Shown: piece by piece, positions 3,959-39,394 of the stretch
Numbering within the stretch: position 1 is the stretch's first letter
Layout of the letters: each line of letters opens with the position of its first letter
IMG/VR virus record: IMGVR_UViG_3300044535_001754
Span: 1-39,488 of that record
DNA: 39,488 nucleotides
Origin: a virus
Direction: 5' to 3' (one strand)
Made by a program: the position numbers and the translations under genes
The notes under the pieces: generated by a model
Database searches by the model: none
What the model saw: the letters and a program-made list of their open reading frames with translations, nothing else
What the model was told of the DNA's origin: nothing

Positions 3959-3993
3959 CCCAGGCAGTTACAGCTGCGCTGGGTCATTTTTTT
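3959..3993 (+). terminator. possible rho-independent terminator, plus orientation
   Basis: CCCAG-GCAG (3959-3967) can pair with CTGC-G-CTGGG (3974-3983) around a 6-base loop with one bulge, followed closely by seven T at 3987-3993. In the plus direction it would stop antisense transcription entering the cro/cI region. It overlaps the 3' end of cro, and no T-run follows it on the minus strand, so it is not an obvious terminator for cro itself. Confidence 0.35.
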
Positions 3994-4219
3994 GTTCTGA
4001 TGCTCTGATACGAACGAACGGACGCGGCCAAATATCTGGTCTAAGTCTGTGGCGCTTAACGCCGACGGCTTGCTCGATGAGAATTGCTTGCTTGAGTGGG
4101 ACCTGGCCTCTGGTTTCCCACATAGACAGGGCGCTTGATGCGACCCCGATCATTCCTGCTAGTGCTGTCTTGGACCCAGCGATTTGCCAGGCCTCTCTGA
4201 ATGCTTCATGTCCTATCAC
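3968..4219 (-). CDS. Cro-like / YdaS-type HTH repressor
   Basis: Small DNA-binding protein of 83 aa, divergent from the CI gene, probably the Cro equivalent that turns down cI and early transcription in lytic growth. A helix-turn-helix lies at residues ~17-36 (SKTALAGMIGVASSALSMWE). It is followed by the Q-V-P and I-E-Q-A signature and LRPDIW at 59-64, a combination typical of the YdaS/Cro family. The start is GTG 4217-4219, with AAGGAG 6 bases upstream. Its promoter and an operator-like site lie immediately upstream. It is the first gene of the leftward replication operon. Confidence 0.9.
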   Translation of the reverse strand: MIGHEAFREAWQIAGSKTALAGMIGVASSALSMWETRGQVPLKQAILIEQAVGVKRHRLRPDIWPRPFVRIRASEQKNDPAQL

Positions 4220-4236: not shown

Positions 4237-4249
4237 TGACAAAGCGTGA
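4237..4249. promoter_or_regulatory. operator-like site at the cro promoter start
   Basis: TGAC-AAAGC-GTGA is an imperfect version of the TCAC-n5-GTGA dyad. Read on the minus strand it contains ATGCTCACGCTT, 12 bases identical to the site at 35856-35867. It covers the predicted cro transcription start, where a bound repressor would block initiation. Confidence 0.6.
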
Positions 4250-4311: not shown

Positions 4312-4324
4312 TCACTTTTAGTGA
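4312..4324. promoter_or_regulatory. operator-like site upstream of cI
   Basis: TCAC-TTTTA-GTGA is a perfect 4+4 dyad with a 5-base spacer, in the AT-rich segment between a TTGACA at 4274-4279 and the cI start at 4375. It is a natural place for autoregulation of cI. The -10 element of the cI promoter is not clear; several AT-rich hexamers could serve. Confidence 0.5.
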
Positions 4325-4374: not shown

Positions 4375-5013
4375 ATGATTACCATCGGCGAACGCATAAA
4401 GATGATCCGCAAACAGCGAGGCATCAGCCAGATAGAGCTGGCGCGTAGGCTCGGCTGGCAAAACTCGCGCATGACCAATTACGAAAAGGGCCATCGAGCA
4501 CCGAGCCTGGAAGTATTGAAGCTGATTGCAAAAGAGTTCGACTGCACGATCGAAACACTTGTTGGCCAAGACTCTGTTAATAATCTATTGAGCATTGCCA
4601 CAATGCGCCGAGTGCCATTAATCTCCTTTTCCCGCGCCGTTGACTGGGCATCCTCTCAGTCACGGGATACTGATGCGGACAAGGAGAAGCAAGTGGTAAC
4701 CTATTTAAGCAATCCAAGCCTGTCAGCATTTGCGCTGACCGTCACAGGCGATTCAATGACTTCATCAACAGGTACATCTTTCGATGAAGGCTGCACTATT
4801 ATCGTGGATCCAGAACGAACCCCCGCCGAGGGTGATTTCGTCGTGGCCCGAGATCCAGAGACAAACAAGGCGACGTTTAAGCGCCTGGTCAATGATGCTG
4901 GCCGCTGGTACTTAAAGCCACTCAATGGGTCTTATCGCATGACGAGCATTGAGAGCGTGAGCGAGTCGGTCATTGGTGTTGTCATCGAGAGCATTCAGAG
5001 CCAAAAGTTCTGA
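4375..5013 (+). CDS. CI-type repressor with S24 (LexA-like) peptidase domain
   Basis: Lysogeny repressor of 212 aa. Residues ~5-65 form an XRE-type helix-turn-helix (RKQRGISQIELARRLGW...NYEKG). The C-terminal half is an S24 self-cleavage and dimerisation domain, with catalytic S127 in GDSM and K169 in KATFKRL. The cleavage-site pair is usually Ala-Gly; here the matching position, after the conserved VPLISF block (80-85), reads A88-V89. I place the start at ATG 4375-4377; the frame is open further upstream, but the N-terminus then would not fit the family. It is divergent from cro and followed by a clear terminator. It probably binds the TCAC-n5-GTGA sites. Confidence 0.93.
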   Translation: MITIGERIKMIRKQRGISQIELARRLGWQNSRMTNYEKGHRAPSLEVLKLIAKEFDCTIETLVGQDSVNNLLSIATMRRVPLISFSRAVDWASSQSRDTDADKEKQVVTYLSNPSLSAFALTVTGDSMTSSTGTSFDEGCTIIVDPERTPAEGDFVVARDPETNKATFKRLVNDAGRWYLKPLNGSYRMTSIESVSESVIGVVIESIQSQKF

Positions 5014-5145: not shown

Positions 5146-5205
5146 GTGAGCAATCCGCTTGCACACCGCTCACATCTCGCATATATTGCCTATCACTTAT
5201 CGTGA
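5146..5205 (+). promoter_or_regulatory. early rightward promoter with repressor sites
   Basis: TTGCAC (5159-5164) and TATATT (5182-5187) are exactly 17 bases apart, with the start point near 5194. Three operator-like elements surround it: GTGAGC at 5146-5151, GCTCAC at 5168-5173 inside the spacer, and a full TCAC-TTATC-GTGA dyad at 5193-5205 over the start point. This is the layout expected of a CI-repressed early promoter. The first gene follows at 5224 with a GGGAG ribosome-binding site. Confidence 0.75.
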
Positions 5206-5596: not shown

Positions 5597-6262
5597 ATGG
5601 GTTTTCTCGCAAAAGACACCGGCGGATCCGGTGATTTCAAAAAAGTGCCTAACGGCGTTTACATCGGCAGATGTTATCAGCTCGTAGATTTTGGTACCCA
5701 GTTATCTGTTGGCCAATTCGGCGAAAAACAAGTCCACAAAATCCGCATCGGATTTGAGTTGTTTGGTGAGGACGAAAACAACGAGCCGCTTATCGTTGAT
5801 ATTGACGGCCAGCAGTTGCCAATGACGATCGGCCTGACAATCAATGTCAGCTTGCACAAGAAGGCAGGGCTTAGAAAGATACTTGAGCAATGGCGCGGAA
5901 AACCCTTCGCCGAAGTTGAAGCCGATGGTTTCGATGTGGCCAAGCTGCTTGGTGCTTACGCAATGGTGAACTGCACACAGAGCGAAGGCAAAGAGGGCAA
6001 GGTTTACACGAACATCGCTGGGCTCTCCCCTATTCCTGGTGCGCTGAAAAACTCAAAGCCGGCCGGCGTCCATGAGATGCAAGTGTTCGATCTCGACAGC
6101 CCAACCGACCAGGCGTTTGAAGCGTTGCCCCAGTGGATGCAGAACACGATCAGCCAGTCGCCGGAATATGCGAAATGGCGTGGACTCAAGACTGCTCCCG
6201 CTCCTGCTGCCAAACAGGGATCAGACGCGTTGGCCGAGATGGCCGATGACAAACCCTTCTGA
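5597..6262 (+). CDS. DUF669-like protein with SSB-like acidic tail
   Basis: A 221-aa protein of the type that phages encode next to exonuclease or recombination genes. I assign it to the DUF669/SSB-like group by pattern: a beta-rich N-terminal half containing GVYIGRCYQLVDFG and LPMTIGLTINVSL, then a KILEQWRGKPF block and a LLGAYAMVNCTQ strand. The last residues, ADDKPF, resemble the DDDIPF tip of bacterial SSB, which recruits replication and repair partners. It therefore probably binds single-stranded DNA. AGGAG lies 6 bases upstream of the ATG. The gene is followed at 11 bases by the exonuclease gene, which fits a joint role. Confidence 0.75.
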   Translation: MGFLAKDTGGSGDFKKVPNGVYIGRCYQLVDFGTQLSVGQFGEKQVHKIRIGFELFGEDENNEPLIVDIDGQQLPMTIGLTINVSLHKKAGLRKILEQWRGKPFAEVEADGFDVAKLLGAYAMVNCTQSEGKEGKVYTNIAGLSPIPGALKNSKPAGVHEMQVFDLDSPTDQAFEALPQWMQNTISQSPEYAKWRGLKTAPAPAAKQGSDALAEMADDKPF

Positions 6263-6273
6263 GGTGACTGGCC

Positions 6274-6978
6274 ATGAGCATATACGTTTTGGACATTGAG
6301 ACCGCGCCAGCCCAGAACATCGAGATCATCGAGCTTCTGGCGGCCGAGTCGGTTGCAGAAAAGGCTGCAATCAAACCCCCGTCAAATTACAAGGACGAGG
6401 TCAAGATTGCGGAGTACATCGCGGCCAAGAAACTTGAGATCGATGCTGATTTCGAGAATCGCTATCGAAAGACTGCCCTCGATGGTGCTTATGGCCAGAT
6501 CGTCTGCCTGGGCGTGGCCGTTGATGATCAAGAGCCGGAGGTCTTTTATCGTGATGATTGGCGAGCCTCTGAGAAAGAGATCCTCACCGATGCCTTTGAA
6601 TACTTGCGCCAATCATTTGATCCATCATGCGATCGTCGTCCCGTGTTCGTAGGTCACAACATAACTGGGTTCGATTTGAGGTTCATCTTTCAGCGATGTG
6701 CCGTCAATTCGATTGCACCACCATCGATGATCCCATTTAACGCGAAGTCCTGGTCCGAGTCGATTGCTGACACGATGACCATGTTTGCCGGGTTCGGCAA
6801 CAGGATCAGCCTGGTCAAGCTCTGCCGAGTCCTGGGCATCGATAGCCCCAAAGACGGCATCGACGGCAGCAAGGTTTATGACTACCTGCTCGATGGCAAA
6901 GTCAATGAGGTAGCCGAGTATTGCAAGCGCGACATTGAGGCCACACGCGAGGCCTACCGTCGTCTTTCTTTTATTTAA
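6274..6978 (+). CDS. DnaQ-like 3'-5' exonuclease (DEDDy type)
   Basis: A 234-aa exonuclease of the RNase H-like DEDD superfamily, closest by pattern to the predicted PolB-like 3'-5' exonucleases. Motif I is D7-I-E9-T; motif II is GHNITGFDLRF with D134; motif III is Y216-CKR-D220, the Y-x3-D spacing of the DEDDy class. No polymerase domain is attached. Together with the preceding SSB-like protein it may act in replication or recombination. The ATG follows GAGGTGACTGGCC. Confidence 0.88.
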   Translation: MSIYVLDIETAPAQNIEIIELLAAESVAEKAAIKPPSNYKDEVKIAEYIAAKKLEIDADFENRYRKTALDGAYGQIVCLGVAVDDQEPEVFYRDDWRASEKEILTDAFEYLRQSFDPSCDRRPVFVGHNITGFDLRFIFQRCAVNSIAPPSMIPFNAKSWSESIADTMTMFAGFGNRISLVKLCRVLGIDSPKDGIDGSKVYDYLLDGKVNEVAEYCKRDIEATREAYRRLSFI

Positions 6979-6987
6979 GGAGTGTTT

Positions 6988-7164
6988 ATGCAGCTCGACA
7001 CATACAAAGACAACCAGCCAGTGTGGACCCCAGCTGGCGTGGATATCACGATTCGATGGCGCGAGACGTATGGCTGGGTGCCCGCCAGCGAGACCCCTGA
7101 TGTCAAGGCCAAGCAAGATTTCTTTCGGCTGCGTCAATACGAAAAAAAAGGATCACAACAATGA
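6988..7164 (+). CDS. small hypothetical protein, early operon
   Basis: A 58-aa protein, not recognised. ATG 6988-6990 with AAGGAG 5 bases upstream is preferred over an in-frame GTG at 6982. It is rich in Trp for its size (VWTPAG, RWRETYGW) and has a charged C-terminus. It overlaps the next gene by four bases (ATGA), so it belongs to a tightly packed run of small early genes. Confidence 0.75.
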   Translation: MQLDTYKDNQPVWTPAGVDITIRWRETYGWVPASETPDVKAKQDFFRLRQYEKKGSQQ

Positions 7165-8442: not shown

Positions 8443-8632
8443 GCTGAGAGAATTGACGGGTCGCCGCCAAAAGGCTTGCCAGGTTCAGGCCTTGCGATTT
8501 ATGTGCATTGAGCATAAAGTGAGGCCGGATGGTTCTATCGTTGTCCTGAAAGCGCACGTTGAGCAGTCGCTAGGACTGATGAACGACACCAAAGTCAAAA
8601 AAGAAACTGAGCCGAACTGGGGTGCGATCTGA
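8423..8632 (+). CDS. DUF4224 excisionase-like protein
   Basis: A 69-aa protein just before the integrase, with the DUF4224 signature: LSATELRELTGRRQKACQVQAL, then RPDGSIVVLKAHVE. Members of this family commonly sit immediately upstream of phage integrases and are thought to be recombination directionality factors. It starts inside the end of the GIY-YIG gene (20-base overlap), and its TGA overlaps the integrase ATG (TGATG), so it should be made together with the integrase. Confidence 0.82.
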   Translation: MILSATELRELTGRRQKACQVQALRFMCIEHKVRPDGSIVVLKAHVEQSLGLMNDTKVKKETEPNWGAI

Positions 8633-9669
8633 TGGTGCGAGTACGAAACGCCGAGAACAAAGGCTTGCCAGCTCGATGGCAGCTTAAGCATGGCGCTTAT
8701 TATTTCCGAGTCCCACCTGGCCTTGAGTCGCACTGGGACGGAAAAACAATGTTTCGTCTTGGATCAACACTGCCGGAGGCCTATCGCGTGTGGTCATCGC
8801 GAGTCGATGCCCAAGACAAGGCCGGCAACATTGCCCAATTGCTTGAGAGGTATCTCCTTGAAGTCGTTCCTACCAAGGCACCAAAGAGTCAGACAAACAA
8901 TGTCCGCACCATCAAGCTGCTGACTGCGGTCTTTGGGACGCTAGGTTTAAACGACTTTAAGCCTCGGCACGTTTACCAGTATGTAGACAAGCGTGATGCA
9001 AAAATCGCAGCCCATCGAGAAATAGAGGTGCTGAGTCACGCATTCACAAAGGCAGTCGAGTGGGGGTTTATGGATCGCCACCCGTTCAAAGGCCAAGTAA
9101 GGCTTGAGGGTGAGTCGCCTCGCACTCGATACCTAGAGGATTGGGAGGTGCTTGAAATGCTGCACCTAGTGCCAACCCGAAAATCTGGCAGCGTCTTGAT
9201 GATCCAGGCTTATATCCGACTCAAGCTCGTCACCGGTCTCGCCCGTTCAGACTTGCTCAGGCTGCGCCAGAGTGAGCATTTGAGGGGAGATGGCATACAT
9301 GTCACCCGGCACAAAACTGGAACGCGAGCGACCGTCTACGATTACGCGATGGTCCCTGAGCGCCTGGAGGCCGTAACGCTTGCCCTGAGAACTCGCCCAG
9401 CCCTTTCCCCTTTCTTGTTCTGTAATCGCAAGGGTGAGGGCTATATCGACGAAGCGACAGGCGAAAGCCACGGCTGGGATTCGATGTGGAGCCGGTTCGT
9501 AGCTCGGGTAATGGCCGAGACAAAGATTAAGGAACGCTTTACAGAACACGATTTGAGGGCCAAAGTTGGCAGCGATGCGGAGAGTTTGGAGAAGGCGCGA
9601 GCACTCCTTCAACACGCCGATATTCGCACGACTCAGCGTGTCTATCGACGCAAACCAGAGCGGGTTTAG
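8632..9669 (+). CDS. int: tyrosine-type site-specific integrase
   Basis: Integrase/excisionase recombinase of 345 aa. An N-terminal arm-binding region (~1-60) is followed by a core-binding SAM-like domain (~65-150) and the catalytic domain, with R205 (TGLARSDLLRL), K228 (RHKTGTR), H306-x2-R309 (EHDLRAKVG), H328 (LLQHADI) and the nucleophile Y338. It acts on the attP about 95 bases downstream. The gene is last in the early operon and is followed by a perfect inverted repeat that can terminate transcription. The start overlaps the stop of the DUF4224 gene. Confidence 0.96.
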   Translation: MVRVRNAENKGLPARWQLKHGAYYFRVPPGLESHWDGKTMFRLGSTLPEAYRVWSSRVDAQDKAGNIAQLLERYLLEVVPTKAPKSQTNNVRTIKLLTAVFGTLGLNDFKPRHVYQYVDKRDAKIAAHREIEVLSHAFTKAVEWGFMDRHPFKGQVRLEGESPRTRYLEDWEVLEMLHLVPTRKSGSVLMIQAYIRLKLVTGLARSDLLRLRQSEHLRGDGIHVTRHKTGTRATVYDYAMVPERLEAVTLALRTRPALSPFLFCNRKGEGYIDEATGESHGWDSMWSRFVARVMAETKIKERFTEHDLRAKVGSDAESLEKARALLQHADIRTTQRVYRRKPERV

Positions 9670-9969: not shown

Positions 9970-10572
9970 TCAGGCCATTGATGCCAAAACAGCGGCATAT
10001 TTCGCCTGGCGATCATCCAGACCATGCGTCCCGCCATTGATCCTCTTGGTCATCGCGACCACATCCTTGGAGTCGGCCAGGGCGTTCAATCCGTTCGTCG
10101 ACCAGAACCAGCCAGCCGACAATGCAGCCATCTCTGGCTCGGCGACCAGCTCTGGGTTCTCAACCACATCGACGCCGACAGCGTTAGAGAAACGAGTGTA
10201 ATTATCTTTGCCAGTTAATTGGATAAGACCTCGGCCCAAAAATTTGGCACCCTCGCCCGACGCTTCATCCCCGTTGCCCATTCTTGAGCTGTACGCCTTA
10301 TTCGCAATTTTTTCAGGATTGCGGGCATATTCTTGACAATTCTCGGCGTTGAAACGACTTGGCCAGACTCGGCACAGGGCTTCGGCTGAATAATTTAAAT
10401 TTTCGCGGGTCGCTTTGAATCCCGCCGATTCGTGTGCCAGCTGGCTCAAGAAACCAGCAATTCGGTCTGGCGTGTTTATATCGAAACGCTCAGCCGTTGC
10501 GTTGAGTGCGTCAATCCATTTGTCTGCCATCTCTGCTGTTGTGACGGCGAGAAGGTTCTCTTTGGTAATCAT
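9970..10572 (-). CDS. endolysin, GH19 (chitinase-like) muramidase
   Basis: Peptidoglycan-degrading lysis enzyme of 200 aa. It shows the GH19 pattern: FLSQLAHESAGF with catalytic E48, ENLNYS at 57-62 with the second conserved Glu at 57, then Y-A-R-N-P and GAKFLGRGLIQLTGKDNY. There is no signal peptide or transmembrane segment, so it needs a holin to reach the cell wall. ATG overlaps the Rz stop as ATGA. It is the last gene of the long leftward transcript, after the holin candidate and spanins. Confidence 0.93.
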   Translation of the reverse strand: MITKENLLAVTTAEMADKWIDALNATAERFDINTPDRIAGFLSQLAHESAGFKATRENLNYSAEALCRVWPSRFNAENCQEYARNPEKIANKAYSSRMGNGDEASGEGAKFLGRGLIQLTGKDNYTRFSNAVGVDVVENPELVAEPEMAALSAGWFWSTNGLNALADSKDVVAMTKRINGGTHGLDDRQAKYAAVLASMA

Positions 10573-28073: not shown

Positions 28074-30260
28074 TTACAGATACTCCACCAACAAAGTGTT
28101 GTTCGGGTAGAGTGCTGCATCAGGTGGCGTGCCACCGGTAGGCATGGAAACGATGGTCGGCTTGGCATCCACGTATTGCTTGGGTGCTGCCTCGAGAGCA
28201 TTGACTGGGTCTGCTGGCAATTCGATTGGGACGAGTGACTTGTGCTTAGTGCTGTCAAATAACCAGCGTTGCTGTCCACCGGAATAAACGCCGATGCCAG
28301 TGCCGACCTTGGACATATACGCACCGCTAGAACCAAACTCGACTCCGATACCAGTTCCGGGAGTCGTAATCTTTTGCGTGAATGACGCACCGGTAGCCGT
28401 GAAGTTGACAATGTTTGCATTGCCGTAGCGAACTGCTACGCCGCCGTTCGCACCAAAAATATTGTAGGTAGATGCGCCCCAAGTCAAAGACTGAACGGTC
28501 GTCGGCAGCGTAATGCCACCCGTCATCGTGCCGCCAGTTGTCTTTAGGAAAGCGGTCGAGCTGCTAACCGCTGAGTCAACATAAGCCTTGTTCGTGAGGT
28601 CAGAGACTTCCACAGGGGCAGTGACGCATTTCGGCGCAATGCTAAATGTCACCTTACCCGTAGCAATTTCGATTGTGTATCCAGACTTGCTTCCGGGCAA
28701 TTGGACACGGAAATATGTGCCGTCGTAGTATGTGTAGACATCTTGACCGTTGAAAGAGCTTACGCCTCCTGAGTTAGCGTAGCGCAGCGGTCCGTTCATT
28801 ACGTCGCCAGATTTGTTGACGTAGTTTGTCGATGCCGTTGTCGAGATGGTGCCGTCTGCTGCGACGTTCATCCCTGTGCCAATTTTCACACCGCCGAGAA
28901 CAGTTGCCGAGGCGGTCGGTAACGTGTACGCGACACCACCAGCCGCAACCTTGTCGTCAACATACTTCTTATTTGCAGCCATTGCGTCTGTCGTGGGCGC
29001 AGCAGCTGGCAAAGTAAAAGGAACTTTTGAAGTGATACCCGTGTCAGAAATGTCGAGAAAATCAGTCGTCGCACGACCGTACTGAATACGATCGAGAAAT
29101 GACTTGACCCAGTATGTAGGCGCAACAGAACCAAACCGCTGCACCATTTCACCAGCGGCGGATGCTGGCATCGTAATCATGCCAGTCATCGTGCCGCCAG
29201 CCAGCGGCAGGTAGCCAGTCAAATTGGTGGCTGGTGTAAAGATTTTGCCGTCTGTGCCGAGTTTGGAAATGTTCCCGGCATCGCTTGATGTCTCCGTCGG
29301 GCCAGCAGGACCTATCAATGAATCGAGCCACTCTTGCTCTGTGCCTGTGAAGCCATTGGCCACTGCGACCTGGTAAGCCGACAGGCCAGTTGCTCCAGGT
29401 TGACCGTCGGCTCCAACAACCGGACCCGCATCATCAAACTTTGCAGGATCAACAGTTGTGTTCCAAACGTAAGCGACTCCAGTGTCATCGGCCACATATA
29501 CGTCGCCGTGAATCTGGCCTGTCAATGCGCTCAAGTCGGCGGCCGTTGCTACGCGGCCGACATATCGAAGCCCCAATCCCTGTGGACCCTGCTCGCCCTC
29601 AAGCGATGCAAGCCACTCGGCTTCAGTGCCGACGAACCCGCCTTGGACTGCGACCTGATAGGCGGAGGCGCCGTCAGCGCCGGTTTCTCCGGCCGCGCCA
29701 TCCTGGCCAACCAATCGACCCATAGGTTCCCATGCGGTCACGACGTTCGGGTCATCAATCGCAAGCGCGAAATAACCTTCGCCTGTATCGTTCGTAATGT
29801 AGAACTGACCGCCCTTGGCTCCAGGAGTGAGGGCTTCCAGCTCTGTGTAGTTATTGATGCGGCCCATGTAGCGTGGGCTTACTCCATCCTCTCCGTCGGC
29901 ACCATTCTCTCCGACCAATCGACCCATCGGATAAAAAGATTTACCTTCTGGGGCATTTGAATTTGCCAGGAGTTGATGACCGATGCCAGTGTCATTGGCA
30001 ATGTAAACGTCATAAATGTCTGATATTCCAACAACTCCAGCAAGGTCAGATTCTGTACCTACACGACCTGCATAGTGAAATCCGATAGGGCCTGGGATGC
30101 CTTGAGGCCCACTTGGGCCCGGTTCACCCTGAGGGCCCGGCACGCCAGCAGCGGCAGACACGACATTCCAGCTGATGCCGTCGTATTGATACTGCACACC
30201 ATTCGGTGCGTCGTAGATGTCGCCAGCGGCTGGGGTATCGGGAAACTCTAAGGCTGCCAT
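28074..30260 (-). CDS. collagen-like fibre protein, long
   Basis: A 728-aa protein. The N-terminal module (FPDTPAAGDIYDAPNG) leads to a collagen-like G-x-y block (~40-58), then repeated units ending in PMGRLVG (two copies) and the SAYQVAV-x-GF-G-T-x2-EWL unit (two copies) with further G-x-y stretches. Its C-terminal half has trimer-forming fibre patterns (repeats of LPLAGGTMTGMITMP and FLKTTGGTMTGGITLP). It is probably a trimeric fibre. Its place between portal and neck genes suggests attachment to the head or neck, while sequence alone cannot exclude a tail fibre. Confidence 0.75.
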   Translation of the reverse strand: MAALEFPDTPAAGDIYDAPNGVQYQYDGISWNVVSAAAGVPGPQGEPGPSGPQGIPGPIGFHYAGRVGTESDLAGVVGISDIYDVYIANDTGIGHQLLANSNAPEGKSFYPMGRLVGENGADGEDGVSPRYMGRINNYTELEALTPGAKGGQFYITNDTGEGYFALAIDDPNVVTAWEPMGRLVGQDGAAGETGADGASAYQVAVQGGFVGTEAEWLASLEGEQGPQGLGLRYVGRVATAADLSALTGQIHGDVYVADDTGVAYVWNTTVDPAKFDDAGPVVGADGQPGATGLSAYQVAVANGFTGTEQEWLDSLIGPAGPTETSSDAGNISKLGTDGKIFTPATNLTGYLPLAGGTMTGMITMPASAAGEMVQRFGSVAPTYWVKSFLDRIQYGRATTDFLDISDTGITSKVPFTLPAAAPTTDAMAANKKYVDDKVAAGGVAYTLPTASATVLGGVKIGTGMNVAADGTISTTASTNYVNKSGDVMNGPLRYANSGGVSSFNGQDVYTYYDGTYFRVQLPGSKSGYTIEIATGKVTFSIAPKCVTAPVEVSDLTNKAYVDSAVSSSTAFLKTTGGTMTGGITLPTTVQSLTWGASTYNIFGANGGVAVRYGNANIVNFTATGASFTQKITTPGTGIGVEFGSSGAYMSKVGTGIGVYSGGQQRWLFDSTKHKSLVPIELPADPVNALEAAPKQYVDAKPTIVSMPTGGTPPDAALYPNNTLLVEYL

Positions 30261-30269
30261 GTTCGTTCC

Positions 30270-32078
30270 TTACTTTTGAATGAGTGCAACAAGATCAGCG
30301 ACCTGCTTTTTCAGGGTCGCTATTTCTGTTTGAAGTTGTGTGATTTCTGGAGCTGCGCCGATGCTGACAATCTCGACCCACTGGCCGCCTGTCGAGTCCA
30401 GGTAATAGACGAACATCGACGCTGTACCTGAGTTAAACCAGAGCTGGTTCTTTGTCGGGTCTGCGGGAGGTGTCTCGCTTGCGTACATTGTGGCCGCGCC
30501 AGGTGCGCTTGTGGTTTGCACCCATTGGCTGCTTGTGCCGTCGTTGTACAAAACGTAGAGGCCACCGTTACCAGTATTGAACCAGAGCGAATTCTCTTCC
30601 GCATCAACCGGCGGGACAGCAGAAACTGTCACGCTCGATGAGGTTGACTTTGGAACATAGATCAGCCCATCGTTTGCAGAGATAACCGCAGCGTTGTCTG
30701 CATCAGCTGACACAGCAGTTGGCCCTGGAGCACCATCAGCACCAGGTTGTCCATCTGCCCCTGGTGGCCCTGCTGGACCTGGTGCACCTTCTTTTCCTGG
30801 TGTGCCTGGTTTACCGTCTGCACCCGCAGGACCCTGTGGACCAATAGGGCCTCGAGGTCCTTGAGGTCCAACCGTACCGTCACCTCCACCACCTGCACCG
30901 CCGACACTTCCAGCGATCATCTGCACCCAGGCGGCTGATTTGCCAGACGGGAAATCTGTGGTGCGATCAATGGCCAGCCAGAGCGAATTGTCCATGCGAA
31001 CAATTTCGCCGGACGAATAAGTCTGGGTCGCATCGTAATAGCCACGGAATGACTTGACAGCCGCGCCATCAAAATCATCATTGAGATCAGGTAGAGCAAG
31101 CTCAATCGTGTGAACTCGGCCGTCCGTCATCTCAAACAGAATATTTGATTCGGCTGCGAATATGTCCTTGATGCCTACGCCAGGAGCGCCCTGGGCGCCG
31201 GCAACACCGGACTCGCCCTGGTCACCCTTCTCTGTGAACACAAACATCTGCCACTGCTTGTCGCCTTCGTCGGCAACTTTAATGAGCGTCTTGCGATCCT
31301 TGATCACAATGTCATTGATCAGATAATCGACATCTTTCTTGAACGTGCCGCGAAAAATCGGCGAGTGATTCTCGATTGTGTGATCAATGACTAGGCCATC
31401 AGACAGGGCGACACGCATCGCGGTCTTTCGAAGTTCTGTCTGCTCAAACGAAATGTCGTCGATGCCGTTGACCAGGACGTTGTATCCTGCCGGGTCATCT
31501 GACGGCGATCCGTTCGCCTTGCGGCTAGTCATAAACAAACCGCCACCATGAGCGACGAGCGTGTTCTTGTCTACCTTGTCGCCATCACGAACCAGCATCG
31601 GCTCAATGATTGGGCGATCGCGCCCTGGCTCACCATCGCGGCCGTCCTGGCCGGCGGCGCCGTCTAAACCCTTCTCGCCGTCAATGCCGTCGCGACCATC
31701 TTTGATCTGCGAAAGACGATCGTCAACGATTGACTTCAGTGCGTCGAAGTGCGTCTGGACGTCAGCCTTTACTTGGAGCGAAAGCTCTTCACTTTTTCCT
31801 TGACGCTGTTCCAGATCGCTAATAGTTTTTGCATAATCATTGATTGCCTCGCGAGTAATGGATAAGTTATCTTCATTATTGCTCTGCACAACCCGAAGCA
31901 TCTCAGCGGCGAATTCAGATTCTGACTCCGCTGCGCGAGCCTCGACCTCGATGAGCTTGGCCTGGATGGCCGCGAGCTCGCCGGCGTTCTTTTCGATTGC
32001 TTTGTTTAATGAGTCCCGAGTCTCAGAAAGAACCTCTGCGACTGCCTCAATAACGGGTAATTGTTTGTGGTCAAGCAT
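30270..32078 (-). CDS. collagen-like fibre protein with coiled-coil N-terminus
   Basis: A 602-aa protein. Residues ~10-130 are a long coiled coil (repeated Leu, Ile and Val in heptads); next comes a G-x-y block ([20 protein letters not shown]), a beta-rich middle, a large collagen-like stretch near 400-460, then two NSLWF/NQLWF units and a closing helical heptad segment. I use the ATG at 32078, which overlaps the portal stop as ATGCTTGA; a TTG at 32093 is the alternative. The coiled coil plus collagen design indicates a trimer. It is the first gene after portal, so a head or portal-vertex fibre is plausible. Confidence 0.75.
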
Positions 32079-33393
32079 GGTGCATTTTTCCAATCAGTAT
32101 GGATTTGATCAGCGCCTTTTCTGCTTCGTTGTCCTGAGCCTCTGGATCCTCAGGCTGCTCGACAGCTGGTGTCGGGGGCGCAGGAGGCGCGACAGGCTCG
32201 GGAGTCTCACCGACCTGGATCATCTGTTGCTGTAGGTAAGGCTTTTCACCCCCCTCTACAGGAGGCAGCCCTTCGATGCGTCGCGCCTCATTAGGTGAGT
32301 AAATCCCTCGCTGTACAGCCTGACCAAGCGTGTCGACTCGATCCTTCATGTTGGTGCGAAGGAGAATCTTTTCGTCTAGGTTGATTGACTCGTCAGCATC
32401 CAGCTCAAAAAAATTCTCAAGAGACGTTTCAATCAGTTTGATTGTGTGGCCGAGATCCGTGGCCAGCCAATGGCTGATCAGCTGCTCTGTGTTGTTGTAT
32501 GTCGAATTGCCCATCGAGTTGACCAGGGCGAGAGGCACACCAAAAACACTGGTGATCGCCTCAACCGTCATCTGGTAAGCCTGGATCATCTGAGCGTCCT
32601 GGCTCGACATCGAAATCTGTTGCCACTTCAGGCCGCTTGCCAGAATTGGTGTCTGTCCAGATGAGAACCCGGCAGACTGTTGATTCCAGACTTCTCTTAA
32701 TCTTGAGATCTGCTCTTTCGTCAAATCCTTGTCAGTGCTAATCACGCCAGATGGCCGGCCCTGATTCGTAAAGAAATTAGCCGACCCAGCTGTGATCGCA
32801 TTGTTTGTCGTCACAGTTGCAAAGACTGACTCAATGGGCGACACACCACGCAAAGGGTCGTCAGGTGTTGCGAGTTTGATGTGCAACATATCCCGAGCTG
32901 GGACAAAATACTCAGGATCGAAGTTCTCGTATGTGAAACGAGTGTCACTCAGCGAGTAAACCACTCCACCGTCGTCCGGCAGCCGATAGGCGTGGACCAT
33001 CTCTGGTCGCATCAGCCACATTTCAGCCACTTCGGTTCTGTTGTTGCGCCTGGCCACAGCAAAAGCGTTGCCGTTATAAAACAGGCTGCGAACTAGGTTC
33101 GATAAGAACTCAACCTGGTTCATCAACGGATTGGGCTTGCGTAAGGTTCTCAGAGCCGCGCTGTTTTTGACAGGGACTCGCGCACCATCTTCCTTCGTTC
33201 TGAAATGCTCAATCGGCATCGAGCTGATTGATGCAGCATAGCGACGGACACAGGCCTCCACGACGGCGTTATTGCCGCCCTGCAAAGGCTTGCGTCCCGC
33301 TTGCCACCACTCCTGCCCCCAGGACTGATTTAAGACGCCGACATCCATCGTGTTGACGAGTGACTTGCGCTTAAATAGGTCGAGGAGTTTCAT
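32071..33393 (-). CDS. portal protein (HK97 family)
   Basis: A 440-aa portal protein. It has the HK97 type features: N-terminal [47 protein letters not shown], the DMLHIKL...GVSPI stretch and [19 protein letters not shown]. The C-terminal ~40 residues are Pro/Glu-rich and disordered. It forms the dodecameric DNA channel. The ATG overlaps the stop of the preceding small gene as ATGA. Confidence 0.95.
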
Positions 33394-33689: not shown

Positions 33690-35042
33690 TTACCAGGCCA
33701 CGCCGTTGATGCCGGTGACGAAACCGTCACGACGCATCACCCATGACAAGGGCATCGTCATGCGAACAGCGATCAACTCCTGCTGAAATAACGAGACAAC
33801 CTTGCCGGTCGTGACCGCGCCGAAGTTGTTCTTGTCCAACACGCTTGGATCGGGTGCAACATCATCAGCCTGAACGAGCGACGCTGTGTCAGACACGGCG
33901 AACTCAGGAGTGTCAAATGCCGAAGCAAATGACGAGGCATCCATTGCAATCACAGTCCCTTCAGGGATGTTGTTGCTGACGATGACCTTGTATCCGTTCA
34001 AGCGGCCAGCGGAGAGCTGGTCACGGAACACATAAGTGCCGACTGCTGTCGTTGTGAATGACAAGCCCAACTCTTGGAGCGGGTTCATCAACAAAACGAT
34101 CGAAGCACTGTTGCCATTCTGTTGAATGATAGGAGTGACGAGAGTCTTGATATCGGCCAGGATGTCGGCTGCTGTGCTGCCAGCTGATGTGCCGAGCGTC
34201 ACGCCGTTGAGCAAGCCAGCGGGTGACTTGTTTGGCACTGCTGGGTTTGCAGAGATCAAGGCTGCATCGATTGCCCATGCTGTGTCGGCAACGATTTGGC
34301 TTGTGATCAGACCCTGAATCGAGGGAACGCTGACACGGCTCAACTCTTTCGAGAAGTGGCTGATCACGCCCATCTTGTAGCGATTCAGAATCTTGCTTGC
34401 GTAGCTAGTGCGCTTGACAGGAATCAGGTTGCCTTCGCCAACAAACGAGCCGGCCAGGTCACCCATTGCGCCGGCTTGAGCTGGCAAGCTGATGGAGTTG
34501 TTGCCACCGAATTGGATCGATGTACCGGAAGCAGCTAACTGAGCATAAAAGCTGTTTGGACGTAAAGCGTCCATAAAGTCAGCATAGCCTTGACGGGTCA
34601 ATTCAGCAGCCCAACCAGCGGCCTGAGTTGTTGCTGGAGCTGTCTCAGCCTTAACGACTGTTTGAAGTTCACGATCGGACTCAAAGTAAGAACCAACCAC
34701 GGACTCAAGCGACTTGCCCTGAACGTGCGAAACGAAAGCAGCAGTAGCCATCTTGGCGAAAAGCATATCCTCACCTTTGCGGCTCTTAACTGTGCCGAGG
34801 TGTTGAGCTTTAACGATTGCAGGAGCTGCAACAGAGCTGGCCAATGATTGCTCGGCGTCTTTGTAAGCCTGAAGCGATTTTTCTTTCTGCTCAATCAGAG
34901 CCTTAGCAGACGAGATTTCGCTTGCTTCGACTTCTGTCAGATCACGGCTGTCAGCTTCAGCGGCTTTTACCAGACCTGTGATGACGTCTTTGGCGGCGAC
35001 GATTTCGCCTTCGATAGATTTAATTTTTACGGATAAGGTCAT
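33690..35042 (-). CDS. major capsid protein (HK97 fold)
   Basis: A 450-aa capsid protein. Residues ~1-75 are helical and charged, like the HK97 delta domain that scaffolds assembly and is cut off by the protease. The rest shows the HK97 patterns: FVGEGNLIPVKRTSYASKILNRYKMGVISHFSKEL, DTAWAIDAALISANPA, VLLMNP and a C-terminal LIAVRMTMPLSWVMRRDGF. I place the start at ATG 35040-35042, which has GGAG 7 bases upstream and overlaps the protease stop as ATGA, instead of the ATG four codons earlier. Confidence 0.95.
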   Translation of the reverse strand: MTLSVKIKSIEGEIVAAKDVITGLVKAAEADSRDLTEVEASEISSAKALIEQKEKSLQAYKDAEQSLASSVAAPAIVKAQHLGTVKSRKGEDMLFAKMATAAFVSHVQGKSLESVVGSYFESDRELQTVVKAETAPATTQAAGWAAELTRQGYADFMDALRPNSFYAQLAASGTSIQFGGNNSISLPAQAGAMGDLAGSFVGEGNLIPVKRTSYASKILNRYKMGVISHFSKELSRVSVPSIQGLITSQIVADTAWAIDAALISANPAVPNKSPAGLLNGVTLGTSAGSTAADILADIKTLVTPIIQQNGNSASIVLLMNPLQELGLSFTTTAVGTYVFRDQLSAGRLNGYKVIVSNNIPEGTVIAMDASSFASAFDTPEFAVSDTASLVQADDVAPDPSVLDKNNFGAVTTGKVVSLFQQELIAVRMTMPLSWVMRRDGFVTGINGVAW

Positions 35043-35611
35043 TTCTGACTCCATTGATTAATAAATGAACGGGCTGCATCGAGCCTGGGTGTTTCGACCT
35101 CATCGAGCTTGATTTGGCCAATCGATTCGCTGTACTCCGACCCGAACTGGGTCGCCAGAAAATCAAAATGCTTGATCGCGGTGATCGACGCCTCGGCGTT
35201 GCAAGGGATCGTCACGGCTGAAAGTTCGAGCCACTTCCACTCCTTGAAGCGATAGCCGCCGCCCTTGATGGGCTCGGATTTCGTGGCTCGGAATCCAATT
35301 GACAGGCCACGAACAAGGCCCGACTTCATCTGGCGCCAGGCACGTTCCACATAGTCAAGGCCAGAGTCTTTCGCAATCTCAGCCTCGATCTCAATGCCGG
35401 CGTCTGTGACGCGAGCAGTCCTGACCATACCTATCGGAGATCCGTGGTCGTGCTGGGACAAGAGAGGAATCGGGAGAGTGAACCTGGCACCCTTTGGCTC
35501 GACTATGTCGCCGGCGTGGTCTGTGCTTGGTGTGGAGGCGATGCCTCGGATGATCCGTTGCGAATCATCAATTGATTTGATCTCTAGTGTCGACCAGCTT
35601 TTAGTGTGCAT
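35039..35611 (-). CDS. prohead protease (HK97 family, U35)
   Basis: A 190-aa assembly protease. H54 in LLSQHDHGSPIG and S104 in RGLSIGF match the catalytic His and Ser of the HK97 gp4 herpesvirus-protease fold; RIIRGIASTPSTDHAGDIV is the usual N-terminal strand. It removes the capsid delta domain. Its ATG overlaps a small upstream frame. The gene is separated from terL by the accessory cluster, so it needs the promoter at 35760-35788. Confidence 0.93.
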   Translation of the reverse strand: MHTKSWSTLEIKSIDDSQRIIRGIASTPSTDHAGDIVEPKGARFTLPIPLLSQHDHGSPIGMVRTARVTDAGIEIEAEIAKDSGLDYVERAWRQMKSGLVRGLSIGFRATKSEPIKGGGYRFKEWKWLELSAVTIPCNAEASITAIKHFDFLATQFGSEYSESIGQIKLDEVETPRLDAARSFINQWSQK

Positions 35612-35729
35612 ATTCCGGCAGCTCTATAGAGCCAGCCGGATAAACCGTCGCTGATAGTTGATCGTCACGCTCGCCTGGAGGGGCGCTTTTCTGTCGCTCG
35701 GACTTGCCTGGGCGATTTCGGGCCATCAT
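35601..35729 (-). CDS. possible small gene before the prohead protease
   Basis: A 42-aa frame whose TAA overlaps the protease ATG (ATGCACACTAA). The product is basic at the start (MMARNRPGKSERQK) and then Pro/Glu-rich. It is the first frame after the head-operon promoter; no strong Shine-Dalgarno sequence is seen before its double ATG. The overlap is typical for this genome, yet a 42-codon frame can occur by chance. Confidence 0.45.
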   Translation of the reverse strand: MMARNRPGKSERQKSAPPGERDDQLSATVYPAGSIELPEYAH

Positions 35730-35759
35730 TGTTGGCTCTGCGTGAGTTTGGATTGCGTA

Positions 35760-35788
35760 ATTATCACAAATACAACAATTTAAGTCAA
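35760..35788 (-). promoter_or_regulatory. leftward promoter for the head operon
   Basis: Minus strand: TTGACT (rc of 35783-35788) and GATAAT (rc of 35760-35765) with a 17-base spacer and a TGT before the -10, giving an extended -10 promoter. The start point would be near 35753, and an AACTCACG half-operator lies just after it (GTGAGT at 35742-35747 on the plus strand). It would transcribe the protease, capsid, portal and following genes, which the accessory cluster separates from the terminase genes. Confidence 0.6.
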
Positions 35789-35858
35789 TAAATTATCGTT
35801 ATTTATCAATAACTTAACAAAATGTGACAATAAATTTCTCTTTTTATTGCATTAATGC

Positions 35859-35902
35859 TCACGCTTCGTGAATATTTGTATATAATTCGTTTATCAACTC
35901 AC
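35859..35902 (+). promoter_or_regulatory. operator and rightward promoter of the accessory cluster
   Basis: TATAAT at 35881-35886 is a consensus -10 with no good -35 hexamer; the -35 region instead carries a perfect TCAC-GCTTC-GTGA dyad (35859-35871) preceded by ATG, giving the 12-base match to the cro operator. A half-site (AACTCACG) sits at the start of the transcript at 35897-35904. Repressor bound here would block the cluster in a lysogen; activation is the alternative. AT content is high throughout. Confidence 0.65.
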
Positions 35903-35918
35903 GCAACAGGAGAATTAA

Positions 35919-36164
35919 ATGACAAACACTTTCAACCTCTTTCGCAGACTCGCAGCAATCGTCTTTTTCTCAGCCGCTGGCTACGCCACTTGGTTCATCG
36001 TTAGCCGTTGGGTGATGTACCTGTTTATAGAAAAAGCTGAAAGCTCATACGGAATGGTCGTCGCAATCCTCGGCGCGATGAGCTTTGTTTGGATTTTTGT
36101 TTTTGCTGTCCTGGTCTGGCTTGGAAAAACATTCTGGGTCAGCTTAGACAAAGACGTTGCATAA
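35919..36164 (+). CDS. two-pass membrane protein, accessory cluster
   Basis: An 81-aa protein with two hydrophobic helices, ~9-28 (RLAAIVFFSAAGYATWFIV) and ~46-68 (VVAILGAMSFVWIFVFAVLVW), separated by a short charged loop, so an inner-membrane protein is likely. AGGAG precedes the ATG at 7 bases. It is the first gene of a plus-strand cluster inserted between terminase and protease genes. Superinfection exclusion is a possible role for a small phage membrane protein, by inference only. Confidence 0.8.
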   Translation: MTNTFNLFRRLAAIVFFSAAGYATWFIVSRWVMYLFIEKAESSYGMVVAILGAMSFVWIFVFAVLVWLGKTFWVSLDKDVA

Positions 36165-36208
36165 ATTTTATTTATGAATATTTTTTCTAACTAATCGGAG
36201 AACCGAAA

Positions 36209-36640
36209 ATGAAAACGAAATTTTTTAGCTTTGTCTTTTTAGTCCTCAACGCTTGTGTCCCTTTACATGCACAAGATTTGGGCTTCTCTTGCCAGTTTAA
36301 TAAAGGCACCGTCGGTGATTTAAAAAACGGCGTGATGAAACACGCAGACACTAAAAAAGGCGATTTGCCTCCTTTAAGTTTCACACTCAACACATCAACA
36401 AAACAGGCGGCGGTTATTGGCAACTTAGGAAAATCAAAGGTTGAAATGGTAAGCGGAAAAAACATCATCACTTTTGTTGAAGTGACCCCAGCTGGCAACT
36501 TTGTTTCTACCTCGGTTTATTTTCCTGATAACCAAAAAGACAACACCACATTCCACGCAACGCACACCCGAAATATATCTTTCCATGACGGTGGAATGGT
36601 TTCGTCTTATTTCGGTTCTTGCAAAATGTTTGACCTTTAA
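36209..36640 (+). CDS. secreted protein with signal peptide, accessory cluster
   Basis: A 143-aa protein. The first ~21 residues are a signal peptide (basic MKTKFF, hydrophobic core, LHA cleavage motif before Gln). The mature part is beta-rich with a Cys near each end (C28 and C139), suited to a disulfide in the periplasm. A Cys inside the signal (LNAC) does not fit a lipobox well, so an exported soluble protein is preferred. CGGAG precedes the ATG. No family recognised. Confidence 0.78.
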   Translation: MKTKFFSFVFLVLNACVPLHAQDLGFSCQFNKGTVGDLKNGVMKHADTKKGDLPPLSFTLNTSTKQAAVIGNLGKSKVEMVSGKNIITFVEVTPAGNFVSTSVYFPDNQKDNTTFHATHTRNISFHDGGMVSSYFGSCKMFDL

Positions 36641-36683
36641 AAACTATCTGAAACAAACCCATTAATTTAATTAAGGAAAAAAA

Positions 36684-36944
36684 ATGAAAAACGGAAAAAT
36701 GATTGAACTGCGGATCCGCTTCTGGACAAACGACATCGGCGAGGGCGATCAAGTGAAACCAAAATTCGCCTGGGACTCCGGGATCGTTGCAGTACCGATG
36801 AACGAGCGCCACGGCATCAAGGCTCAAGAGCCAGTCATGTTCAAGAGCATGGCGTCGATGCCACTGGCGATCGAGACCGCTTTGATCAATGCCGGCGTGA
36901 CTCTAGTCAATGGCAACCAGTCACTGAAATACTTCAGCAAATAA
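36684..36944 (+). CDS. small conserved-looking hypothetical protein, accessory cluster
   Basis: An 86-aa soluble protein with an AAGGA ribosome-binding site. Pattern: LRIRFWTNDIG near the N-terminus, AWDSGIVAVPMNERHGI in the middle and an IETALINAGVTLV helix-strand. I remember bacterial proteins with a similar LRIRFWTN start and HGI motif, of unknown function. It is the only member of the cluster without an export signal or membrane helix. Confidence 0.7.
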   Translation: MKNGKMIELRIRFWTNDIGEGDQVKPKFAWDSGIVAVPMNERHGIKAQEPVMFKSMASMPLAIETALINAGVTLVNGNQSLKYFSK

Positions 36945-36958
36945 TTGAGAAAAAAGAA

Positions 36959-37270
36959 ATGAAAACTTTAATTGCCATCGCAATTGCAGCAGTAGTCACT
37001 TTGTCTGGTTGTGCATCCTCGGTCACGAAAACCGTTGACGCAACCGGCGACGAAATATTAATCGTCCGGTGTGGTGCAAGGGCTGAAAACTGTTTTGAAC
37101 AAATAAAAGTCGCTTGCAATGGAAATAAATTCAAGACTCTAGATGTCCGCAGCAACAAGTCCACTGGATACAACTATCAATCATCGTGCTACAAGTCCTC
37201 GTGCTCCGGGTCTGGCTACTCATCAACGACTGTAAATTTTGCGGTCAAAGCAAAATGCCTTGCATCGTAG
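36959..37270 (+). CDS. putative lipoprotein, accessory cluster
   Basis: A 103-aa protein with a clear lipoprotein signal: MKTLIAIAIAAVVTLSGC, lipobox LSGC, Cys 18. The residue after the Cys is Ala, followed by Ser, so outer-membrane sorting is expected. The mature part has six further Cys and a Ser/Tyr/Gly-rich segment (SSCYKSSCSGSGYSS), suggesting disulfides. It ends 13 bases before the convergent terL stop. A surface or periplasmic role such as blocking receptors or later phages fits, without direct evidence. Confidence 0.8.
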   Translation: MKTLIAIAIAAVVTLSGCASSVTKTVDATGDEILIVRCGARAENCFEQIKVACNGNKFKTLDVRSNKSTGYNYQSSCYKSSCSGSGYSSTTVNFAVKAKCLAS

Positions 37271-37283
37271 AAATTAGATAAAT

Positions 37284-38957
37284 TCACCCCATCATCGCGG
37301 CCGCATCAAACGTGTTCTCTTCGCCTACCAACTTCACGCCAATGATCGTGGCCACAATGCCGTCGATCTTGGCGTATCCCTGACCACTCAATCCAGCGTC
37401 CCTTTTCCTGAGCTTGCGACCATTGCCGTCGCTTTCAGTAATGCTCAGGTTCTGCACATTCTCATTCAAGAGCGGACAGTGCTGGTGCGCGAGGCGCCCA
37501 TCGGCCAGTAGTGATTCAAGAGCTGTCAGCGCACTGCCCATGATGTAGTCGCGCTGCGGGACGGACTTGAACTCGCACACCTCGTTTGAGAACCTGGATG
37601 AGAACCCGGCAACGCCACCATGCTCGTCGCCCCCGATCACCAGGCTATTAGATAAGCCGCTCATCATTCGCTTGCACTCAGCGAACACGGCCAGCTCAAT
37701 GCCGCCCACTGTTTCGTGGATCTCGAGCGTCTTTTGCTCAATCGCCTCGTCGTATACCGGCTGGTTCTTTGATCCCGCTCGATCGTATCCGTTGCGCGTC
37801 AAAAACTGTTTTATTCGGACCTCATGGACTCCATCATCGCGGCGAGTAACAAAGGCCAGAGCGAACGGGTCGTCCACTCCACCAACATCCAATCCGATGG
37901 CTGTTATCCCGTCCCTGGGCACATCTGGCCCACACTTAGGCGCCCGCCCCCAGTATCCATGCAGGATCGACTCCGCCTCGTCCTGGCGCAAATTACTCTG
38001 GATCCCAAGCCTCTGGCTCAGAATCAAAGATAACTGCAACCTGTCCTCCGTGTTGGCGGCCGCATTGATCTCATCGTTCAGTTCCTCGGCGTCCATCGTG
38101 CCAGGCTGCTTGTCGGTGCGTAATGATGGCGCACCCCTGAACCACTGCCCTCGATCCAGCGGCGACAGGTCTGGCCGCTCCACAACAGGGAACTCAAATA
38201 TCGCAGGAAAGAACTGACTGTCGACAAGCGTTCCATCACGGACCGCACGACCGAGCGAGAGCAACCTCTTGAACTCGCCGACTGGTGCATCGATCGACAT
38301 GGTTGAAATCGTCAAGATCCTTGCGTCGCGTCCGAAGTTTCTCGCCCCCATCCGCAGCTGTGAGCAAATCTTATCGGCGTCGCGGATCTTGGCCAGCTCG
38401 TGCCCCTCATCCCAAATGATCAAACACGGCCGGCGCCCGACCGCCTGGTCAAGCGATGGACTCAGCACCACAATCTCGATCCCGCTCGGAATGTGTTTTA
38501 GCGTTCGGCTTTGCAAGTTCGTCTTGAATTCGCTCTTGATCTCTGGGTCCCCGATCACGGCCTCCAGGATGTGGCCAAAGATGATCCCAGCTGTCGGAAC
38601 CGAACTGGCCATGATCGCCACCATCGCCCGATGGTTGATTCCGCGAATGTGCGAATATTTCGTATAAGCGATTGCGATGGCCGATGCCAGGACGGATTTG
38701 CCGCCCCCTTTGGACAACATCAAGAACGACTCTTTGTGATTCCAGAACCCTCGTAGGAATTTCGTCTGCCAGGGCAGTATCACCTCGGACAACGTGCGAC
38801 CCGCCTCCTTACCCTGCGAGAGCATCAGGTTGCCGGCAAGACGGATAAACAACTCAGAATCTTCGGTCGGCGTGAAGTCCGGCAAGATGTCGGCTGCCGT
38901 CTCCGCATTAAACCAGTCCTGGTTGACGTTCGTGTTGAGCTTGACCTGGTAACTCAT
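37284..38957 (-). CDS. terL: terminase large subunit
   Basis: A 557-aa packaging motor. The ATPase part has the Walker A-like LSKGGGKS at 81-88 and Walker B CLIIWDE at 178-184; the nuclease part begins with the AIGLDVGGVDDPFAL strand, with acidic residues expected to bind metal, and further on has VIGGDEHGG. It belongs to the Terminase_1 type that pairs with P27-like small subunits. I use the ATG at 38957, overlapping the terS stop as ATGA; three codons upstream an alternative start exists. Confidence 0.95.
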   Translation of the reverse strand: MSYQVKLNTNVNQDWFNAETAADILPDFTPTEDSELFIRLAGNLMLSQGKEAGRTLSEVILPWQTKFLRGFWNHKESFLMLSKGGGKSVLASAIAIAYTKYSHIRGINHRAMVAIMASSVPTAGIIFGHILEAVIGDPEIKSEFKTNLQSRTLKHIPSGIEIVVLSPSLDQAVGRRPCLIIWDEGHELAKIRDADKICSQLRMGARNFGRDARILTISTMSIDAPVGEFKRLLSLGRAVRDGTLVDSQFFPAIFEFPVVERPDLSPLDRGQWFRGAPSLRTDKQPGTMDAEELNDEINAAANTEDRLQLSLILSQRLGIQSNLRQDEAESILHGYWGRAPKCGPDVPRDGITAIGLDVGGVDDPFALAFVTRRDDGVHEVRIKQFLTRNGYDRAGSKNQPVYDEAIEQKTLEIHETVGGIELAVFAECKRMMSGLSNSLVIGGDEHGGVAGFSSRFSNEVCEFKSVPQRDYIMGSALTALESLLADGRLAHQHCPLLNENVQNLSITESDGNGRKLRKRDAGLSGQGYAKIDGIVATIIGVKLVGEENTFDAAAMMG

Positions 38958-39394
38958 GCAGACCACTTAGAGGCTGGCTTTGTCGTTTCTGCCACGCTTG
39001 TCTCGGCTGTCTTTGCCATTGCGTCTGCGCTGCCCACATTGATTCCCAGGAGCCTGGTCGCAGAGTTCATGGCCGCAACCGCTTTGCTGATGGCCGATGC
39101 TGCTGGATGCGCTTTTGGCGTCCCATCTGGGCCAACGTAATAGTGTCCCTCGACGTTTAGAACCCTCTGCGCCTCACGCAACATCGAGACAGATGATAAA
39201 TACATCTCCACCGTCGGCATTAAGTTCTCGCGCCAGGTGCCAGCGGCAATCAGACTTCCGATCAGCGTTTTGTAATCCTTGCCCATATCCGCACCGATAG
39301 AATCCGGCATTTTTGGAATTTTTGCCAATTCTGCGGCCGGTTTGCTCTTAATTGCAGATAATCCTGAACTCGTTCTCATCAAATTCGCCGGCAT
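38954..39394 (-). CDS. terS: terminase small subunit (P27 family)
   Basis: A 146-aa DNA-recognition subunit. The central part (WRENLMPTVEMYLSSVSMLREAQRVL, then GHYYVGPDGTPKAHPAASAISKAVAAMNSATRLLGI) is the P27-family signature. I use the ATG at 39392-39394, which has GGAG 8 bases upstream, over the GTG at 39403 that would overlap the HNH stop. It binds the packaging start and hands DNA to TerL. The HNH-terS-terL order is typical of HK97-like phages. Confidence 0.92.
   Translation of the reverse strand: MPANLMRTSSGLSAIKSKPAAELAKIPKMPDSIGADMGKDYKTLIGSLIAAGTWRENLMPTVEMYLSSVSMLREAQRVLNVEGHYYVGPDGTPKAHPAASAISKAVAAMNSATRLLGINVGSADAMAKTAETSVAETTKPASKWSA

Follow-up and report, generated by a model that had tools for sequence, protein, structure and literature searches.

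An exchangeable cargo slot between terL and the prohead protease gene of a temperate phage, headed by a putative repressor-controlled promoter

Early in infection, bacteriophage T5 makes the lipoprotein Llp, which has a Cys11-Cys58 bond and shuts the receptor FhuA from the periplasmic side (PMC9586334), and the exclusion lipoprotein Rtp45 acts on LptD (PMC12685063). In T4, Imm and Sp act against superinfecting phages (PMC11436027). Moron genes are often highly expressed in lysogens (PMC7067206). Here we analysed a locus of a temperate phage at which small proteins, most of them predicted to be envelope-directed, are encoded in a segment that close relatives fill with other genes, behind a promoter with an operator of the type found in the phage's own immunity region.

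The window, meaning the whole stretch of DNA that was analysed, comprises the 39,488 bases of a virus record. Its positions 2 and 39488 adjoin in the relative L002, therefore the genome is probably complete and circularly permuted. Judged by its gene content the phage is temperate, because an S24/CI-type repressor, a Cro/YdaS-type regulator and an integrase are all encoded. The integrase shares 57.5% identity with its counterpart in Xanthomonas phage PBR31, which serves as a host hint only; scans of genome contigs with the TerL and integrase alignments gave no match and did not find the host. On the minus strand the genes follow in the order terS, terL, protease, capsid, a small gene and portal. 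As the earlier note had described, the leftward terL-protease-capsid run is interrupted between terL and the prohead protease gene by four plus-strand open reading frames at 35919-37270, all of which are present. The features of the locus, with two genes lying elsewhere, are as follows.

8632-9669: integrase
9970-10572: endolysin (PHROG_181, E 3e-82), away from the cluster
35039..35611, minus strand: prohead protease (Peptidase_S78, E 9.7e-11), one flank of the slot
35760..35788, minus strand: divergent promoter of the head operon, TTGACT-17-GATAAT, invariant in four aligned relatives
35859..35871, plus strand: operator palindrome TCACGCTTCGTGA, overlapping the -35 region and spacer of the cargo promoter
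35881..35886, plus strand: -10 box TATAAT of the cargo promoter, kept in relatives
35888..37283, no strand assigned: exchangeable cargo interval, with unrelated genes in relatives
35919..36164, plus strand: ORF1 (P0001), predicted two-pass membrane protein of 81 aa with two hydrophobic peaks
36209..36640, plus strand: ORF2 (P0002), predicted exported protein of 143 aa with homologues in a Bradyrhizobium plasmid and a prophage
36684..36944, plus strand: ORF3 (P0003), small cytosolic protein of 86 aa for which no homologue was found
36959..37270, plus strand: ORF4 (P0004), predicted Cys-rich lipoprotein of 103 aa with an LSGC lipobox
37284..38966, minus strand: terL (PHROG_9, E 1.6e-39), the left flank of the slot, with its stop codon as the exchange boundary

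Among 1000 dinucleotide shuffles of the interval, none contained four plus-strand ORFs of at least 80 aa and five contained three. Codon-frame scores clearly favoured the called frame for ORF1 and ORF3 and weakly favoured it for ORF2. For ORF4 a reverse-strand frame outscored the called one, and since codon-frame support is absent there, what speaks for this gene is a ribosome-binding site and a lipobox. The minus strand of the cluster yielded nothing, its frame at 36187-36498 having no PHROG match, and an Rfam search of 35000-38000 returned no match. The GC content is 0.42-0.46 around the cluster versus about 0.53 elsewhere in the window. The four genes had been called AT-rich, which applies to ORF1, ORF2 and ORF4 (0.41-0.47 GC) but not to ORF3 (0.519 GC), whose composition is ordinary for the phage, and the cluster itself is therefore mosaic. 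Outside the locus, at 28074-32093, two large tail-region proteins bear collagen-like GPQGP repeats.

Relatives were drawn from IMG/VR by terminase and capsid searches, and their flanking DNA is 82-92% identical to that of the window. The earlier note had proposed comparing the terL-protease interval in related phages, and this comparison revealed unrelated genes at exactly the same site; both flanks are kept and the interior genes differ, which agrees with the suggestion that the cluster is cargo. In L002, L005 and L013 the homology to the window breaks off at 37284, where the stop codon of terL has its last base, and in L003 at 37288. On the other side of the cargo it is picked up again at 35887, a single base beyond TATAAT, in L002, L003, L005, L011, L013, L016 and L017. 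The cargo genes of the relatives are unrelated to those of the window (no convincing homology; best E 0.014, in a signal peptide) and always antiparallel to terL. One further contig, L008, matches the window at 99.2% identity and stops at 35891, which would fit a population that is variable at the slot. The segment thus has the marks of a moron locus: insertion between conserved genes, variability among close relatives, a promoter of its own recognisable from the sequence (TATAAT at 35881-35886 with an upstream element, both kept in relatives) and, ORF3 excepted, a deviating composition. We regard the interval 35888-37283 as almost certainly an exchangeable cargo (moron) slot. What is conserved among the relatives is the slot together with its repressor-type operator-promoter, and not the particular gene set of the window.

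A promoter of the cluster's own and repressor-type sites had both been claimed, and both can be read from the DNA. The -35 element is weak, and a generic consensus scan did not list the promoter. Of the sites, the one at 35859-35871 is a perfect palindrome and a second, at 35815, matches less well; they can be set beside the following elements of the immunity region.

3968..4219, minus strand: Cro/YdaS-type regulator
4237..4249, plus strand: imperfect operator TGACAAAGCGTGA at the cro-side promoter
4312..4324, plus strand: operator TCACTTTTAGTGA upstream of ci
4378..5013, plus strand: CI-type repressor (HTH_3 and Peptidase_S24), the presumed regulator
5193..5205, plus strand: operator TCACTTATCGTGA at the rightward early promoter

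The pattern TCAC-N5-GTGA occurs three times in the window, at 4312 (upstream of ci), 5193 (rightward early promoter) and 35859 (cargo promoter). Its chance expectation is 0.78 and 13 of 300 random sequences had at least three, so the weight rests on the positions of the palindromes and not on their count. The 41.6 kb contig L002 also contains it three times, at corresponding places. A matrix built from four window sites, including 4237, ranks these four first and 12033 next; this ranking is circular for its own sites and shows that few other sites come close. All promoters of the cargo units follow the arrangement TGCTCACG-N4-GTGA-N8/9-TATAAT (TGCTCACGN4GTGA-N8/9-TATAAT) with invariant arms and a variable centre, and L014 carries two such operator-promoter cargo units in tandem. 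When 2.9 million viral contigs were scanned for exact occurrences of this composite motif, it turned up in 10 contigs of the window's phage family and in one unrelated phage, L030, which was dropped because the motif lies inside a phosphoesterase-like gene. Behind the -10 box of each of the two divergent promoters stands the 10-mer AACTCACGCA (35739-35748 and 35896-35905), which is not retained in the cargo leaders of relatives.

Because a ci-like operator overlaps its -35 region, we assign the cargo promoter to the phage's own CI/Cro regulon; the operator is common to the immunity region and is placed on the cargo promoter, and control by the repressor is, on this basis, quite probable. With the -10 box at 35881, the operator covers the -35 region and the spacer, which is the position of a repressor site, and we infer that CI, and perhaps Cro, would turn the cargo off. 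This position predicts expression of the cargo when the repressor is absent, that is upon infection or induction, and not standing expression in the lysogen. The stretch from the cargo to terL showed no terminator, so transcripts of the late genes would cross the cargo in antisense, which would favour early expression. The sequence of events that we prefer would hence be a cargo promoter that is silent under CI in the established lysogen and fires early after infection or upon induction, with small envelope proteins made in a burst before leftward late transcription reaches the cargo from the opposite strand.

A classical lysogenic-conversion moron is the alternative that fares best against this expectation. 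Its single operator would be weak, the genes would be expressed in the prophage state and the surface of the lysogen would be protected or altered. The antisense position, the separate promoter and the foreign composition are all typical of moron loci (PMC7067206), but in every cargo unit the operator lies on the -35 region and spacer with invariant arms and would be expected to block transcription under the repressor, and we consider prophage-state expression unlikely. We therefore retain expression in the repressor-free cell as the preferred reading.

The slots of relatives hold an exported protein of 107-109 aa (PHROG_2315, function unknown) or a lipoprotein of 154 aa, accompanied by a two-pass protein of either of two unrelated kinds (77 or 84-86 aa) and by small soluble proteins. 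Across these few loci, non-homologous proteins seem to fill similar roles, namely an exported protein or lipoprotein together with a small two-pass protein. Cargo pieces are swapped one by one among the relatives, and some cargo is nuclease-like and not of the envelope type (HNH, helicase or homing endonuclease). The second operator-led unit of L014 (2324-6134, minus strand) encodes a 608 aa protein with HNH and ResIII/DEAD helicase domains, as well as two proteins composed of repeats of the type WTLERCQ...CCGHM. In L003 a homing-endonuclease-like gene (2202-3284, minus strand; PHROG_655, E 3e-23) lies at the terL-proximal end of the slot. Several relatives share a short first ORF with a similar start behind the cargo promoter despite otherwise different cargo, namely L002 (9212-9370, MSVLKCGVFERELSLTRR), L014 (2029-2214, MKVLKCGVFEREMSLTRR) and L010 (2053-2196, MKTHKCGIAERELSLNRR), all on minus strands; it is absent from the window and L016, and is possibly a leader peptide. 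In L017 (91-2156), terminase genes unrelated to those of the window adjoin the protease and the same cargo as in L016, so that exchangeable packaging modules and head modules also meet at the slot. The Moraxella phage Mcat5 (L021), with a TerL about 25% identical, has the same gene order and other genes in the slot (5951-7139); these are annotated as hypothetical, and judging by their sequences alone we take them to encode a Com-like zinc-finger protein, as in Mu, and a Dam-like methylase.

Such contents invite the view that the cargo consists of mixed or selfish passengers, i.e., four unrelated captured genes with no joint function, some of them serving intracellular defence or counter-defence. 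The difference in composition between ORF3 and its neighbours, the piecewise exchange and the nuclease-like genes of relatives all speak for it. However, the common regulated promoter and the recurrent pairing of exported with two-pass proteins suggest selection on the products, and a set of passengers alone appears quite unlikely. ORF3 itself we propose to be either a partner that works in the cytosol or a passenger unconnected with the others.

The cluster as a whole had been read as envelope-directed, which sequence features bear out for ORF1, ORF2 and ORF4, whereas ORF3 has no envelope signal. None of the four proteins had a convincing match in Pfam, NCBIfam, PADLOC or PHROGs, with no known defence gene in PADLOC, and PDB sequence searches of ORFs 2-4 were equally unproductive; none of the four has a homologue of known function in these databases. 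ORF1, which we take to resemble T4 Imm in size and two-pass topology, has no PHROG, Pfam or NCBIfam match and so no match to the T4 Imm family; a viral scan gave two partial matches of 24 residues (L006, L007). ORF2 reads as a protein with a signal peptide and a Cys pair (C28 and C138) near both ends of the mature chain. One homologue lies on the Bradyrhizobium plasmid p195_1 (36% over 84 residues, E 9e-5), where the gene is unannotated, and another in virus contig L031, downstream of tail-fibre-like genes; the two terminal Cys are present in both of these exported proteins. The mature parts of the exported Cys-pair proteins of L024 (p195_1, about 2860-3231) and L031 (2974-3363) are nearly identical. 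For ORF4, tblastn gave no phage match, and a match to the collagen-adhesin 1d2p (E 0.023, 27 residues) was judged to be chance. Its match to PHROG_1119 (Cor) spans residues 1-31 only, which are the signal peptide and lipobox, and reflects signal peptides, because the unrelated lipoprotein of L016 yields the same match; membership in the Cor family was accordingly rejected. ORF4 shares with Cor and Llp the lipobox and the small size, and not homology in the mature protein.

Three further readings concern what the proteins do. ORF2 might be a periplasmic protein with an MliC- or T4 Sp-like function that inhibits lysozyme and so protects the wall or delays lysis. Any likeness between ORF2 and MliC is conjectural; the terminal Cys are kept in the homologues of ORF2, and T4 Sp works through lysozyme modulation (PMC11436027). 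The ORF2 model is all-beta, but single-sequence AlphaFold models were too poor to establish a fold (mean pLDDT 47 for ORF2 and 40 for a second model), and ORF2 has no Pfam or PDB sequence match, which leaves this role very unlikely. Lysis systems include exported and lipid-anchored partners. ORF1, as a two-pass membrane protein of 81 aa, could accordingly be a small class II holin or antiholin with lysis accessories beside it, but no holin or spanin family match was found, the endolysin is encoded elsewhere, relatives have an entirely different cargo, and the cargo promoter is of the repressor-controlled and not the late type, all of which make lysis timing highly improbable. Virion proteins, to which the place among head genes might point, can practically be dismissed given the opposite strand, the separate promoter and the unrelated replacements in relatives that share the head genes.

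In the preferred reading, the ORF4 lipoprotein and the ORF2 Cys-pair protein would reach the periplasm or outer membrane and ORF1 the inner membrane, and together the products would impede further phages at adsorption or at the entry of their DNA ('lytic conversion'). We lean towards an action of the products on the cell envelope after infection or induction. Joint action on the envelope that excludes other phages, by analogy with T5 Llp or T4 Imm/Sp, is a tentative proposal whose chances fall short of even: the cluster is not beside a receptor-binding gene, where Llp/Cor-type genes tend to be, and the missing envelope signal of ORF3 and the nuclease-like cargo of some relatives also count against it. 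The whole chain of cargo slot, repressor control, envelope action and exclusion is to be taken as more tentative again. It is rather doubtful, though conceivable, that the cassettes form a modular 'lytic conversion' slot, each led by an operator-promoter copy, stackable in tandem and delivering envelope-acting sets only in the repressor-free state, with non-homologous proteins in the same roles. If right, this would tie exchangeable phage cargo to the prophage's own switch, as opposed to the usual moron genes that serve the lysogen, and TGCTCACGN4GTGA-N8/9-TATAAT beside terL would be a sequence anchor for harvesting small envelope-active proteins.

Compared with known systems, the locus resembles several and coincides with none. 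Moron loci antisense to lytic genes, such as STMMW_20121 in the Salmonella prophage ST64B (PMC7067206), likewise have an independent promoter and are dispensable for the phage backbone; they are recognised by expression in lysogeny, whereas the promoter in the window has the phage's own repressor operator. The anti-phage hotspots of P2/P4-type phages (PMC9122126) are likewise short loci (1-5 kb) with a conserved phage gene on either side and a rapid turnover of content. Unlike them, the slot of the window lies between terL and the protease gene, has a conserved repressor-type promoter and carries no known defence gene according to PADLOC. ORF4 is, like T5 Llp, T1/phi80 Cor and Rtp45 (PMC9586334, PMC12685063), a small phage lipoprotein with cysteines, but it has no homology to them past the signal peptide, adjoins terL and is accompanied by three companion genes. 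T4 Imm and Sp (PMC11436027) are likewise a small membrane protein and a partner, without sequence match to the window proteins; T4 is virulent and has no repressor, whereas the phage of the window is temperate. The C1 operators of P1 are dispersed repressor sites that lie far from the immunity region. The same holds for the stoperators of cluster A mycobacteriophages (PMC6550527, PMC9283540). In contrast to both, the phage of the window and its relative have only one distant site per genome, and this site lies on the promoter in front of the exchangeable cargo.
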